A stretch of 32,759 nucleotides of DNA from Chitinophaga pinensis (GCA_945877575.1 CAMDUE010000018.1:1-32759); one strand, 5' to 3'; positions 24,594 through 32,759 are shown, counted from the stretch's first letter. Numbers and translations are program-made. The notes: generated from the sequence alone by a model not told the origin.

Positions 24594-25046
24594 TTATTTA
24601 AACATGGTAGCTTGGTAACCACGGTTAGCGTCGCCTTTCAAAGACAAACTAACAGTGATTGATCCTTGAGCACCAGCTTTGGTTTTCAATTGCTTAGCCA
24701 TAGCTTCAGACATGAAAACACAAGTAGTCCAATCTGGATCTTCTTTAATGCTTACAGTCAATTTTTGAGAACCAACCGGAGGATTGCAAGGAGCTGTTTG
24801 AGCACCTTTTGCGCCTGGAGCAGCATGTGGAGCTGCATGAGGAGCGCCAGCAGGAGCACCAACTGCTTGTTGACCATGGCCACCTACAGCTTCAAAAGTT
24901 ACCGTAACACCTGTAACCATCACTTGGCGGTTGTTGTAATTTTTTTGATTTTGAGCGAATTGCATACCAGCAACCTGCTCACCTTGTGCCATAGCTGCGC
25001 CAATCATCAAGATTCCAGCAGCTAAAAAAGAAGTAATTTTTTTCAT
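24594..25046 (-). CDS. Small secreted protein with Ala/Pro/His linker, possibly OB-fold
   Basis: A 150-residue protein with a signal peptide (about 1-20, ending AAMAQ), so periplasmic or secreted. The first half, FAQNQKNYNNRQVMVTGVTVTFE, resembles the start of small OB-fold domains (compare NQKYVGQIVEISGKV in the protein at 30118). A low-complexity linker follows (GAPHAAPHAAPGAKGAQ, about 66-84), then a second half with two cysteines (one in TAPCNPP, one in DWTTCVFMS) that could form a disulfide, and strands to the end. The linker histidines might bind metal. I recognise no named family and give no function. Confidence 0.75.
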   Translation of the reverse strand: MKKITSFLAAGILMIGAAMAQGEQVAGMQFAQNQKNYNNRQVMVTGVTVTFEAVGGHGQQAVGAPAGAPHAAPHAAPGAKGAQTAPCNPPVGSQKLTVSIKEDPDWTTCVFMSEAMAKQLKTKAGAQGSITVSLSLKGDANRGYQATMFK

Positions 25047-28404: not shown

Positions 28405-30096
28405 TCAAAATTTCATTTTCTTTCCACCGATGAATGTACGCTTCGCTCGAATTCTTTTCAAATCATCTACTGAGCATTCCAGAATATCTTTGTCTAGAAC
28501 AATAAAATCAGCCACTTTATTACGTTCAATACTGCCTTTCCAAGTATCTTCCCTGTTAGCATAGGCTGCCCAAAGAGTCATTCCAAGCAAAGTTTCTTTT
28601 CGACTTAAAGCTTGTTTCGGTAAAAAGGGAACTGTTAAATTTCCAGCAATATCCATCCTCTGCGTAGCAGAATAAAAAGATGCAAAAGGGTTGATGGCTT
28701 CAACAGGGAAATCTGTTCCAATGGCCACAACTCCAGCACTTTTTAGTAAATCTTTGTAGGCGTAAGCACCCGATTGAGGGTTGTAAAATTGAGTGTAACC
28801 AATTCTTTGAGTTGAATCAATGCAAAGTCTTGACATTGCCCATGGCGCGTCTGAAGTAGCATGCGTGGGCTGAATACTCGGAATAATTCCCCAATTAGAA
28901 AGCTGTTTTTGATCACGGGGATCAACAATTTGTGCATGTTCTATCCTCCAACGAGCGTCAAATCCTTCCGGGATGGTTTGCTTGAAATTGTTAATAACTA
29001 ACTTGTTGGCCGAGTCACCAATGGCATGAACACAGACTTGAAAGTTCTTATTTAACAAGTATTGAGTGTAATAACTGAATTGACCGTAACTAATTAGTTG
29101 AAGTCCATGATATCCATTTCTATCACAGTAATCCGTTTTCAGTAAGGCACCTTTAGAGCCCAATGCACCGTCTAAATAAATTTTCATGCTTTCGCAATGC
29201 ATGAGGTAATTATTTGGGATTTCATTGGTCCCCACTTTGATTAGATTCTCATCTTTACCAGAAAGCATGGCACAAAACCGCATGTGAATTTTCTGATCTT
29301 TTTGCAATTTTTGCAAATAATTCATTTCATCCAATTCTAAACCAGCTTCATCTAAAGTGGTCAGACCATATTTATAGATGGTTTTTGCCTGTTTTACAAC
29401 GGCTTTAGTCAGTTCTTTTTCATCCATTGGAGGAATGAATTTCCTCACCCAATCAGAGGCATTATCTACAAATATTCCTGTTGGTTTTCCGCTGGAATCT
29501 TTAATGATCTCACCGCCAGCGATGATTGTGTCCCAGTTCAAATTCAACGTTTTTAGTGCTATATCATTGACCCAGATAGCATGTCCATCAACTCTTGATA
29601 AACAAATTGGTTTTTTAGATGCTCCTTTAAGGTCAACTGCCGCAGGAAATGTTTTTTCGCTCCAGTCATTTTGATCCCAACCTCGACCAACAATCCAAGT
29701 ACGCTTAGTTTTGAATTTCTTTACCTTTTTATAAACCTCAGATTTGCTTTTTGTGCCAAAAACATTGACTTCTTTGGTGCCCCTGCAATAAGCTAAAAAA
29801 TGACAGTGTGCGTCTATGAGCCCAGGGTATAAATATCCGTTGTGTTTGGTGGTTTTTGCTGTTGGATATTTTAACTGAGCATCATTCACGGAACCCGTAA
29901 AACGAATCCATCCATTCTCTTCAACAAAGCACTCCACTGTTGACATAGCTGAATCACAAACGTAAATCTTTGTGGCTGTATGAATTGTAGCTTGAGACAT
30001 CGAATATTTTGAGCTCAGTCCCAATAAAATAAATAAAAAGTGAAAGATTTTTTGGGGGACAAACGTTTTTAGATTGTTATACCTTTGTTTCATCAT
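28405..30096 (-). CDS. Exported amidohydrolase, YtcJ-like (amidohydrolase 3)
   Basis: Metal-dependent hydrolase of the amidohydrolase superfamily, 563 residues. It begins with a hydrophobic signal-like segment (FHFLFILLGLSSKYSMSQA), suggesting export. The first metal-ligand motif is DAHCHF after GYLYPGL, then GRGWDQNDW, DGHAIWVN, the HAIGDSANKLVI motif typical of YtcJ, HAQIVDP and the final catalytic Asp in GTDFPVE. Family members cleave amides, formamides or related bonds; the substrate is unknown. There are two adjacent ATGs (30096 and 30093). The adaptor gene follows after 22 nt, so it may be co-transcribed. The gene is divergent from the OB-fold gene with a 21-bp gap. Confidence 0.9.
   Translation of the reverse strand: MMKQRYNNLKTFVPQKIFHFLFILLGLSSKYSMSQATIHTATKIYVCDSAMSTVECFVEENGWIRFTGSVNDAQLKYPTAKTTKHNGYLYPGLIDAHCHFLAYCRGTKEVNVFGTKSKSEVYKKVKKFKTKRTWIVGRGWDQNDWSEKTFPAAVDLKGASKKPICLSRVDGHAIWVNDIALKTLNLNWDTIIAGGEIIKDSSGKPTGIFVDNASDWVRKFIPPMDEKELTKAVVKQAKTIYKYGLTTLDEAGLELDEMNYLQKLQKDQKIHMRFCAMLSGKDENLIKVGTNEIPNNYLMHCESMKIYLDGALGSKGALLKTDYCDRNGYHGLQLISYGQFSYYTQYLLNKNFQVCVHAIGDSANKLVINNFKQTIPEGFDARWRIEHAQIVDPRDQKQLSNWGIIPSIQPTHATSDAPWAMSRLCIDSTQRIGYTQFYNPQSGAYAYKDLLKSAGVVAIGTDFPVEAINPFASFYSATQRMDIAGNLTVPFLPKQALSRKETLLGMTLWAAYANREDTWKGSIERNKVADFIVLDKDILECSVDDLKRIRAKRTFIGGKKMKF
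30080..30087 (+). promoter_or_regulatory. Candidate -7 box of the OB-fold/YceI/cytochrome operon
   Basis: TACCTTTG matches TAnnTTTG and predicts a start near 30091, giving a leader of about 27 nt to the ATG at 30118. The nearest upstream TTTG is 25 bp away, longer than usual. The box lies inside the first codons of the divergent amidohydrolase. Confidence 0.45.
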
Positions 30097-30101
30097 CTAT
30101 T

Positions 30102-30131
30102 CAAATTTAATCATTCTATGAAGTTAGCCAA
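30102..30131 (-). promoter_or_regulatory. Promoter of the amidohydrolase gene
   Basis: On the minus strand TTG (30131-30129), a 19-bp spacer and TAAATTTG (30109-30102) match the consensus fully. The box ends 5 nt before the ATG at 30096, so the message would begin at or within a base or two of the start codon. It overlaps the start of the divergent OB-fold gene. Confidence 0.6.
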
Positions 30132-30579
30132 TCGAAAAATTCTTGTATGGACAGTGTTCTCAGTAATTTTAGTTTCAGTTACAGTAATATTTTTTATGGC
30201 ATCAGAATCAAATTCAGGCGTTGTAGAAGAGGAAGCCAAATATAAATTGACGGTTTCTGATTGGGTTAAGGAAGGTTTGGAAACGTCTGACAGCAGTTTC
30301 AATCAAAAATACGTAGGGCAAATTGTAGAAATCAGCGGCAAAGTTGCTTCGGTGAAAGCAGTGGAGGCACAAAATAGCACTAACGTAAAATTGGAAAGCG
30401 GACAAGAAGAAGTCATTGTCGGAGCTCTTTTCAATAAAACGTCAAAAGAGATTCAAGAATTAGCTCCCGGTCAAGATGTAACGGTAGTTTGCGAATGCAA
30501 TGGAGTTTCTAAACCGGAAGAAGATGATCTTATCAGTGAAGTATTATTCACTCTAAAACATTGTCAATTAAAAAAATAA
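30118..30579 (+). CDS. Membrane-anchored OB-fold protein (tRNA_anti-like)
   Basis: A 153-residue protein with an N-terminal membrane segment or signal anchor (about 8-27, ILVWTVFSVILVSVTVIFF) followed by an acidic linker and a domain resembling the tRNA_anti-like OB-fold family: NQKYVGQIVEISGKVASV, a middle strand with NVKLESGQEEVIVGALF, and LAPGQDVTVVCECNG at the end. Two cysteines near the C-terminus (VVCECN) and one in KHCQL are notable. The name refers to the fold only; an exported protein is unlikely to bind tRNA. I use the ATG at 30118 rather than the upstream TTG at 30085, which overlaps the divergent gene. It leads the redox-looking operon, 9 nt before the YceI gene. Confidence 0.82.
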   Translation: MKLANRKILVWTVFSVILVSVTVIFFMASESNSGVVEEEAKYKLTVSDWVKEGLETSDSSFNQKYVGQIVEISGKVASVKAVEAQNSTNVKLESGQEEVIVGALFNKTSKEIQELAPGQDVTVVCECNGVSKPEEDDLISEVLFTLKHCQLKK

Positions 30580-30588
30580 AACATAAAT

Positions 30589-31140
30589 ATGAAAAAGTAC
30601 ATTGCAGTTTTCTTGATGGCCATACTCTTTACAGTGGGCACCTTATTCTCTCAAGCCACCGTTTACAAAACATCTACTGGAAATATCACGTTTGTTAGTG
30701 AAACAGAATTTGAGAAGTTTTCGGCCGTTAATAATCAAGTTACCGCAGCAATATCTTCACAAGGGAAGGTACAATTCAAAGCGCCGGTAAATTCTTTTGA
30801 TTTTGAAAAGAAGTTAATGCAAACCCATTTCCAAGAGAATTATATGGAGTCTGCTACCTTTCCGAACGGAGTTTTCAAAGGGCAAATTGAAGATTTGAAA
30901 TCGTTTAATTTGGCTAAAAATGGAACATATTCTGTTTCGGTGAAGGGAACCTTAGAAATTCATGGTGTCACTAAAGAAGTGGTAATTCCTGGTAAAATAG
31001 TGGTTGATGGCGATCAAGTAACTTTGAAATCTAACTTTTCCATCTCCTGTGCCGAGTACGGCGTGAAAATCCCCAAAAACAACGTAAATCAAATTTCAGA
31101 CAGCATCAAGATCTCTATTAATTGTTCTTTATCCAAATAA
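30589..31140 (+). CDS. YceI-like periplasmic protein
   Basis: A 183-residue secreted protein with a signal peptide (about 1-22, ending LFSQA). The remainder is a YceI-like lipocalin-type barrel: TGNITFVSETEFEKFSAVNNQVTA, QFKAPVNSFDF, the MESATFPNGVFKG motif that corresponds to the conserved yP-a-F-s element, and GTLEIHGVTKEVVIPGKI, the family's L-t-i-h-G-v-T-k motif. Known YceI structures bind isoprenoid chains such as polyisoprenoid quinones. It lies 9 nt after the OB-fold gene and 8 nt before the first cytochrome gene, suggesting a role in an envelope redox path. Confidence 0.9.
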   Translation: MKKYIAVFLMAILFTVGTLFSQATVYKTSTGNITFVSETEFEKFSAVNNQVTAAISSQGKVQFKAPVNSFDFEKKLMQTHFQENYMESATFPNGVFKGQIEDLKSFNLAKNGTYSVSVKGTLEIHGVTKEVVIPGKIVVDGDQVTLKSNFSISCAEYGVKIPKNNVNQISDSIKISINCSLSK

Positions 31141-31148
31141 TTACATAG

Positions 31149-31793
31149 ATGAAATTGGTTTATTTTGGTGCAGTTATTGCCGCGGCAGGTTTGTTATTGG
31201 GCTCATGCCAACACGAAGTACTTCCCAAAGTAAATGCATCTGACATCTGTTTTGAGCGAGATGTATTGCCCATTTTTGTTTCCAATTGTGCCATGAGTGG
31301 TTGCCACGACGCAGGTACTGCGGCAGAAGATTATATTCTGACCAATTATGCTACCATTATGGCAGAAGGCATTAAACCAGGAAGACCAGAGAATTCAAAA
31401 ATTTGGGAAGAAATTGAAGAAAATGAAATGCCCCCAAATCATCCATTGACCGCCGAGCAAAAATCCATCATTAAAACATGGATCGCTGCAGGTGCTCCCA
31501 ATGGAGTTAATTGTACAAGCAATTGTGATTCATCTAAATTCACATATTCAGAGGCTGTGTCGCCCATTATTACTAAAAACTGTGTAGGATGCCATCAATA
31601 TCCAAGTGCAAGTGGTAGTGTTGATTTGAGTTCATATCAAGGGGTTCGAGACATCGCAAAGTCAGGAGCGTTTGTTCATAGTGTGCAAGGCACAATCGGG
31701 TATAAAAAAATGCCACCTTCGGGTGCGGGATTGTCTGAGTGTGAAATTAATCAAATCAAAAAATGGGTAGCAAACGGAGCTCAACAAAATTAA
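31149..31793 (+). CDS. c-type cytochrome lipoprotein, two heme motifs
   Basis: A 214-residue lipoprotein (lipobox LLGSC, acylated Cys 20) with two tandem cytochrome-like domains. The first has C47-x4-C52-H53, a spacing wider than the standard; the second has C145-x2-C148-H149. Each domain carries a later Met-Pro-Pro segment (ENEMPPN at 92-97 and KKMPPSG) that can supply the Met ligand, and a W-I-A-x-G-A or W-V-A-N-G-A ending. Extra cysteines at 34, 122 and 126 could form disulfides. It should carry electrons at the periplasmic or outer-membrane surface. The last 31 nt overlap the next cytochrome gene. Confidence 0.88.
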   Translation: MKLVYFGAVIAAAGLLLGSCQHEVLPKVNASDICFERDVLPIFVSNCAMSGCHDAGTAAEDYILTNYATIMAEGIKPGRPENSKIWEEIEENEMPPNHPLTAEQKSIIKTWIAAGAPNGVNCTSNCDSSKFTYSEAVSPIITKNCVGCHQYPSASGSVDLSSYQGVRDIAKSGAFVHSVQGTIGYKKMPPSGAGLSECEINQIKKWVANGAQQN

Positions 31794-32149
31794 TTTCGGC
31801 AAGCCTAATTGCCCTAGTTACAGTTTTCGGTTCATGCTATTACGATAAGTATGAGAGCCTTTACGGCGTAACAAAATGCGATACCACCAATGTGGGTTAT
31901 TCAAATGTGATTTCACCAATCATTCAACGCGATTGTGCAGGTTGCCATTCGGGGTCAGGAGCTTCAGCTGGAATTCAATTGTACGATTACACTTCCGTTA
32001 AAACATACATGAGCTCGAATAAAATGCGTTTGTTGGGTTCTGTAAAATGGGATGGTACTGCATCAAATATGCCCAAGGGTGGTAATAAATGGAGCAATTG
32101 CAACATCAACTCAATGCAGTCTTGGGTCAATCAAGGCATGAAACCATGA
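31763..32149 (+). CDS. c-type cytochrome lipoprotein, single heme
   Basis: A 128-residue lipoprotein whose start lies inside the previous gene (31-nt overlap). Lipobox VFGSC with the acylated Cys at 25, then a single CxxCH motif (C58-A-G-C61-H62) and a Met-Pro segment (SNMPKGG) as likely axial ligand; the end SMQSWVNQGMKP matches the ending of the preceding cytochrome domains. The strong resemblance in layout to the second domain of its neighbour suggests duplication. Cys39 and the Cys in WSNCNI may pair. Its TGA overlaps the next ATG by 4 nt. Confidence 0.88.
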   Translation: MGSKRSSTKLISASLIALVTVFGSCYYDKYESLYGVTKCDTTNVGYSNVISPIIQRDCAGCHSGSGASAGIQLYDYTSVKTYMSSNKMRLLGSVKWDGTASNMPKGGNKWSNCNINSMQSWVNQGMKP

Positions 32150-32759
32150 CGGCAATTTCACTATGGAAATTAATTGCCCTAAAACTGGCATTAATTACAA
32201 GCATATTTCAACCTAATTCGGCTAAATCTCAAGAAATTGCAGAAAAACCAAAGAAGGAAAAACCCAACTATAACGTTCCTCTGACCGAAGCTCCAAGCAA
32301 TTCAAAATCGCTCAGGCTCATCACAGGACATACATCCTCGACATTACCCAAAGGAACCTTTGAATTTGTTATTCAACACCGATTTGGAGAATTGAATGAA
32401 GGTGCTGAGAATCTATTTGGATTGGATAATTTCAATTCTGTGCGTTTGGGATTTGATTGGGCTCTAGGGAACAGAATCACCATTGGCGCAGGTCGGAGTT
32501 CCAGAGGAAAAATGTTCAACTCCTATTTTAAATGGAGAATGATTGGAAGTCCCAGAACCAAATTCAATATGACTTATCTCGCCAATACCGATATTGACGG
32601 CAGGAAAACAAGCGACTGGGGCGTATCACCTTTCTTTTTTACTCATAGATTGGCCTATACGCATCAACTGATTTTTTCCCAACAATTTGGAGAAAAATTA
32701 GTCATTGGTGTTGCACCAACGCTGGTGCATTTCAATTTGGTTGACCTGAACAATCAGTC
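32146..32759 (+). CDS. DUF5777-like outer membrane beta-barrel protein (3' end cut by window edge)
   Basis: Open from the ATG at 32146 to the window end, 204 complete codons. It starts with a signal peptide (LIALKLALITSIFQPNSAKSQ), then a Lys/Pro-rich stretch and alternating beta-strands typical of an outer membrane barrel (LPKGTFEFVIQHRFGELNEGAENLFGLDNFNSVRLGFDWALGNRITIGAGRSS). The opening matches my memory of the DUF5777 barrel family of Bacteroidota, often next to cytochrome and YceI genes. The start overlaps the cytochrome stop by 4 nt (ATGA), so the genes are translationally coupled. Function not established; a channel or scaffold for the redox lipoproteins is an inference. Confidence 0.8.
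   Translation, partial: MTAISLWKLIALKLALITSIFQPNSAKSQEIAEKPKKEKPNYNVPLTEAPSNSKSLRLITGHTSSTLPKGTFEFVIQHRFGELNEGAENLFGLDNFNSVRLGFDWALGNRITIGAGRSSRGKMFNSYFKWRMIGSPRTKFNMTYLANTDIDGRKTSDWGVSPFFFTHRLAYTHQLIFSQQFGEKLVIGVAPTLVHFNLVDLNNQ

Follow-up and report, generated by a model that had tools for sequence, protein, structure and literature searches.

On balance, from comparative evidence and with moderate confidence, we favour a reading in which the operon described here is one lineage's version of an envelope redox module found across the Bacteroidota, in which the encoded parts would form an outer-membrane port for electron exchange with a docked carrier, akin to Cyc2 but built from separate and exchangeable proteins. 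The window that was analysed is a complete contig of 32,759 nt from Chitinophaga pinensis (GCA_945877575.1 CAMDUE010000018.1:1-32759); gene calling here and at the surveyed loci followed a simple frame rule, and the surveyed neighbourhoods were labelled with models built on the window proteins. The operon lies at the contig end, and the five exported products reported for it by the initial annotation are all encoded on one strand, with the spacing claimed (gaps of 9 and 8 nt, overlaps of 31 and 4 nt):

28405..30096, minus strand: amidohydrolase (PF07969, by Pfam), divergent, forming the upstream boundary of the operon and lying outside the module
30118..30579, plus strand: OB-fold protein (tRNA_anti-like, PF12869; Pfam 4e-11) with one N-terminal membrane helix, starting at the ATG at 30118
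30589..31140, plus strand: YceI-family lipocalin with a signal peptide (Pfam YceI, 1e-17), after a gap of 9 nt from the OB gene
31149..31793, plus strand: lipoprotein with two cytochrome c domains (PSCyt1 2e-11, Cytochrome_CBB3 1e-7), after a gap of 8 nt
31763..32149, plus strand: lipoprotein with one cytochrome c domain (CAGCH; Cytochrom_C 0.02, a weak match under the cut-off), overlapping by 31 nt
32146..32759+, plus strand: DUF5777 outer-membrane barrel 1, of the cytochrome-linked clade (DUF5777, 2e-35), overlapping by 4 nt and continuing beyond the contig end

The last of these had been read as an outer-membrane barrel, in agreement with its Pfam match (PF19089, 122.8 bits for the truncated barrel 1 at a cut-off of 23.1). 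The contig end interrupts the gene at profile position 152 of 247, and the remainder is found on the minus strand of contig C16 (locus L005), from 8028 downwards, where a second, complete DUF5777 gene (barrel 2, 247.6 bits) follows within 8028-6898. When placed on a close relative (L045), the ends of the window contig (C18) and of C16 fall in a single gene with 49 bp between them, so the operon has a sixth gene, barrel 2, and its order is OB, YceI, diheme-motif lipoprotein, monoheme-motif lipoprotein, barrel 1, barrel 2. This second barrel across the contig gap rules out an operon with one barrel only. The downstream boundary is a convergent membrane-protein gene, and upstream most same-genus relatives carry a divergent gene of similar length at the amidohydrolase position. 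The OB gene has an in-frame TTG upstream of its start, at 30085. Elsewhere in the window (24594-25046, minus strand), a small protein, exported and unmatched in Pfam, has a start, VAGMQFAQNQKNYNNRQVMVTGVTVTFEA, that looks OB-fold-like.

Three c-haem motifs had been counted in the two lipoproteins; the count stands, but the first of them is a CX4CH motif (CAMSGCH) and not CX2CH, the others being CVGCH and CAGCH. In the two-domain lipoprotein, CAMSGCH precedes CVGCH and each is followed downstream by M-P, as is CAGCH in the monoheme lipoprotein. The neighbourhood survey returned the same CX4CH-then-CX2CH order in 76 of 80 long lipoproteins and a single haem motif in 127 of 131 short ones, and a downstream Met-Pro accompanies nearly every haem motif among the relatives. 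With attachment motif and distal M-P ligand both present in the window lipoproteins and kept in nearly all relatives, the two proteins are predicted c-type cytochromes; the genome also encodes cytochrome c assembly genes and haem-copper oxidases. The N-terminus of the monoheme lipoprotein reads CYYDKYES, the family form being CYYD(N/V)EEEL, and at least three acidic residues at positions +2 to +8 were found in 81% of these lipoproteins versus 4% of other predicted lipoproteins at the same loci, a contrast inflated by shared ancestry; in the copy from the window there are just two. Such an acidic N-terminus resembles the surface-export signal of Bacteroidota lipoproteins (PMC5080379), which suggests that the monoheme lipoprotein may be surface-exposed.

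A gene-neighbourhood survey, which the initial annotation had proposed, revealed conserved co-occurrence at the scale of the phylum. DUF5777 was present in 49 of 118 evenly drawn Bacteroidota genomes, about four in ten, and 37 of 40 DUF5777 loci from this sample, a hand choice comprising most of the matches, adjoin an electron carrier (36 have a cytochrome or a Rieske protein no more than four genes away, one more a cupredoxin). Of the remaining three loci, one is affected by contig truncation and the other two show YceI alone. YceI is missing from 10 of the 40. Closer to the window, DUF5777 occurs in 53 of 57 genomes drawn from its genus, family and order, nearly always beside cytochrome lipoprotein, YceI or OB genes and in at least three gene orders; the four genomes without it likewise have neither this YceI nor these cytochromes. 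Among 80 named Bacteroidota loci chosen as the best matches to the query, and hence an uneven sample, a cytochrome lipoprotein adjoins DUF5777 in 73, and cytochrome, YceI and OB genes occur together in 48. These statistics count related genomes as independent. Chance or a local artefact is ruled out by the recurrence of the same families across the phylum in different gene orders.

The carrier is occasionally missing from the neighbourhood. Barrel and YceI occur with no carrier nearby at L220 and L224, and there are OB-YceI-barrel clusters of the same kind, although most such genomes hold a cytochrome and barrel cluster elsewhere. Barrel and carrier are the predicted core of the module, from which YceI and OB are often absent. 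A tree of 79 barrels places barrel 1 of the tandem operons among barrels from clusters that have only cytochromes and barrel 2 among those from OB-YceI-only clusters, and in five or six relatives the two units are held at separate genome sites. The carrier and barrel unit and the OB-YceI-barrel unit are therefore separable, and in the lineage of the window they are merged in a single operon.

The strongest sign of what the carrier slot does comes from its occupants. In the family around Emticicia sp. BO119, a Rieske [2Fe-2S] protein encoded directly upstream of the barrel replaces the monoheme lipoprotein in 28 of the 30 loci read (Pfam-confirmed for two), and a search of Spirosomaceae genomes placed a Rieske match within 2.2 kb of the barrel in 57 of 64 cases and a YceI match in 60 of 64. 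The presence of barrel and that of YceI coincided in 79 of 81 Spirosomaceae genomes (Fisher p 3e-19, kinship uncorrected), the two disagreements being one truncated contig and one divergent YceI. As a Rieske paralogue occurs in all 81 genomes, whole-genome presence of Rieske genes is uninformative and only adjacency counts. Outside the Emticicia BO119 family, Rieske genes accompany DUF5777 at L223, L231, L239 and L281; a cupredoxin occupies the carrier slot at L238 and lies upstream of the barrel at L212; and proteins with an EB_dh domain, which we take to be related to haem-b subunits, stand beside cytochrome and barrel at L078, L210 and L213. Since unrelated redox proteins substitute for the carrier, the job of this slot is therefore taken to be electron transfer.

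Carrier and barrel can also be joined in one chain. Three proteins (L232, L276 and L277), which come from two families in a different class of Bacteroidota, carry a CX4CH cytochrome domain fused at the N-terminus of DUF5777, and this domain is a homologue of domain 1 in the window's two-domain lipoprotein; no YceI gene was seen at these loci in the stretch read. No published function was found for DUF5777, and none of the open-access papers searched names it. A homologous barrel, the single one of L081, has 12 strands as modelled by AlphaFold (mean pLDDT 86.8), with FapF, KdgM, NanC and autotransporter barrels as its best structural matches. Its lumen is rich in conserved charged or polar residues (D60, R66, R86, D111, K115, Q163, K169, R205, E217, D239, Q248 and N280), which disfavours a hydrophobic quinone channel through the barrel; the difference in conservation between inner and outer faces was not significant (p 0.16). 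The structural matches, which include solute porins (KdgM and NanC), would fit an ordinary solute channel, or else a helper of lipoprotein export, that adjoins redox genes for regulatory reasons only. We regard this as highly improbable, as the pairing persists through gene-order change, carrier exchange, co-loss and gene fusion.

On the L081 model, there is no room for a cytochrome inside a 12-strand barrel, and unaided electron tunnelling is too slow to span the membrane, so that either a small solute or ion would enter the pore or electrons would never cross. Barrel and c-type cytochrome lipoproteins are co-encoded as in MtrCAB/Pcc, and a few loci carry additional haem motifs (five at L163; six CXXCH motifs in an upstream lipoprotein at L213), yet a classical Mtr/Pcc conduit, with a haem chain threaded through the barrel, is barely credible here. 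Most systems of this type have 8 to 14 haems, whereas the window operon has far fewer, three motifs in total and at most two per protein, and includes no multihaem periplasmic cytochrome. The barrel is also much smaller, with 12 strands in the modelled homologue versus 26 in MtrAB (PMC8406198), and this strand count together with the charged lumen of the L081 model makes a multihaem wire inside the barrel very unlikely.

Cyc2 of iron oxidisers is the nearer analogue. Here too a small c-type haem domain is placed at a modest outer-membrane barrel, an arrangement matched by the N-terminal fusions in the three DUF5777 relatives. In contrast to the window, where the parts are separate genes that are fused only in L232, L276 and L277, Cyc2 is one polypeptide; its porin is 16-stranded (PMC8406198) as opposed to the 12 strands of the modelled DUF5777 homologue; and the carriers of the module can be Rieske or copper proteins, with YceI and OB proteins added. 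For Cyc2, a small solute or ion has been proposed to enter the pore (PMC8406198). The module is akin in kind to Cyc2 and to porin-cytochrome systems, yet fails defining features of each. The envelope electron-transfer role put forward in the initial annotation by analogy with porin-cytochrome modules is retained in part: phylum-wide co-occurrence, carrier swaps and cytochrome-barrel fusions speak for the role, whereas the Mtr/Pcc analogy fails in mechanism given the 12 strands and charged lumen of the homologue model.

Neighbouring genes bear on where electrons might come from or go to. At L209, L213 and L243, the cytochrome and barrel pair adjoins an NrfC-like ferredoxin, an NrfD membrane subunit and a further cytochrome c, and NrfD-type proteins swap electrons with quinones in known enzymes; an inner-membrane partner is absent from most loci. 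No enzyme partner recurs as a constant neighbour, and no electron donor or acceptor enzyme is conserved, among the loci surveyed. The haem-DUF5777 fusion at L276 (9-4137) shares its gene run with MbnP, a molybdopterin oxidoreductase and a CCP_MauG di-haem protein, a hint that the chemistry could involve copper or be of the sulfite type. Only LytTR two-component genes, beside the module in 14 loci, recur as outside neighbours across different families; the remaining repeats reflect local synteny. A LytTR response regulator lies next to the module together with a large Reg_prop/Y_Y_Y histidine kinase at L104, L105, L109, L110, L117, L127, L128, L138, L160 and others; dedicated regulation of the module by this pair is possible. 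Several of these LytTR loci carry a second YceI gene. In one genus (L071, L077, L080, L083 and L087), a conserved gene upstream of the module encodes an exported protein of some 310 residues that matches no Pfam family and may be another barrel.

Another rival reading is a supply of electrons to particular secreted or periplasmic oxidoreductases. Such a role has been proposed for Cbp2D of Cellvibrio, which combines YceI-like and c-type cytochrome domains and whose cytochrome can reduce the copper of a lytic polysaccharide monooxygenase (PMC12542752), and the molybdopterin enzyme, MbnP and di-haem peroxidase-type protein at the one fusion locus would suit it. We nevertheless consider it improbable, given that no oxidoreductase recurs beside the module and that the recurrent outside neighbours are only the histidine kinase and LytTR genes.

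The YceI protein of the window (65.4 bits against PF04264, cut-off 23.7) belongs to a subfamily with the signature LM..HFNENYMES.KYP, which it carries as LMQTHFQENYMESATFP, and a YceI of this type was found in 47 of the 57 relatives. Some YceI proteins bind isoprenoid quinone, with ubiquinone-8 bound, and in Burkholderia mutants of bcnA/lcoA, the latter encoding a cytochrome b561, lipid peroxidation is raised (PMC9113575). The main rival explanation builds on these observations and posits an envelope antioxidant of the kind proposed for BcnA/LcoA in Burkholderia, in which YceI quinol quenches lipid peroxyl radicals, the carrier lipoproteins re-reduce it and the barrel anchors the complex. The joint inheritance of YceI and DUF5777 in Spirosomaceae (79 of 81 genomes), together with the frequency of this YceI among the relatives, is in line with it. 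A YceI lipocalin inherited jointly with a cytochrome is also a feature of the BcnA/LcoA systems of Burkholderia and others. The membrane cytochrome b561 of those systems is, however, replaced in the module by soluble c-type, Rieske or copper carriers and an outer-membrane barrel, and no cytochrome b561 partner stands beside YceI in the operon, which encodes no membrane cytochrome. In addition, many carrier and barrel loci are without YceI (the 10 of 40 in the even sample and several f2 relatives), as are the haem-barrel fusion loci in the stretch read; the lumen is charged and not lipid-like; and the loci showed no stress regulator, LytTR being the one that recurs. We therefore think the antioxidant role unlikely.

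The OB protein was modelled by AlphaFold with a pLDDT of 91 as a helix (6-32) followed by an OB fold, and its nearest PDB structure is 3f1z (Z 13.1), CcmE scoring Z 9.2. It is similar to the haem chaperone CcmE in having an OB fold behind one N-terminal membrane helix, but the conserved haem-binding histidine of CcmE is absent from the OB protein alignment, and a Klebsiella lipoprotein without known function is the nearer structure. Across 30 aligned OB proteins there is no conserved histidine, and only G74, G118, C127 and G129 reach 90%. A CcmE-type haem chaperone was rejected on this basis, in spite of the similar tether and fold.

In the favoured carrier-docked port, the core would consist of a 12-stranded DUF5777 barrel and a small one-electron carrier lipoprotein, to which a YceI lipocalin would usually be added and, frequently, a diheme-motif lipoprotein and the tethered OB protein. 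The carrier would dock at the barrel mouth, as the fusions and gene pairing suggest, and single electrons would be exchanged with it at a narrow polar pore admitting a small solute or ion and not a protein wire; this Cyc2-like geometry is drawn from the fusions and one homologue model. The diheme lipoprotein could relay electrons, in either direction, between the port and periplasmic carriers and the respiratory chain, and YceI, judging from its family, may hold a lipophilic redox ligand such as menaquinone. Searches of open-access papers for YceI with Rieske proteins, or for YceI and envelope electron transport in Bacteroidota, turned up nothing on this module, and none of the papers links YceI, Rieske proteins and Bacteroidetes. 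More tentatively, the module may add a third type of outer-membrane electron conduit to Mtr/Pcc and Cyc2, namely a 12-strand port that is indifferent to its carrier (c haem, Rieske or copper), draws on the quinone pool and occurs in the 49 of 118 Bacteroidota genomes; we hold this to be a reasonable possibility rather than an expectation.

Overall, if the favoured reading is right, a large share of Bacteroidota would carry an undescribed outer-membrane redox system, and DUF5777, a family without known function, would gain one, with the Rieske, cupredoxin and fusion variants serving as natural controls. The module would bear on how a short-range carrier may serve the outer membrane without a haem wire, and also on how Bacteroidota meet oxygen, metals, humic substances and reactive lipids.
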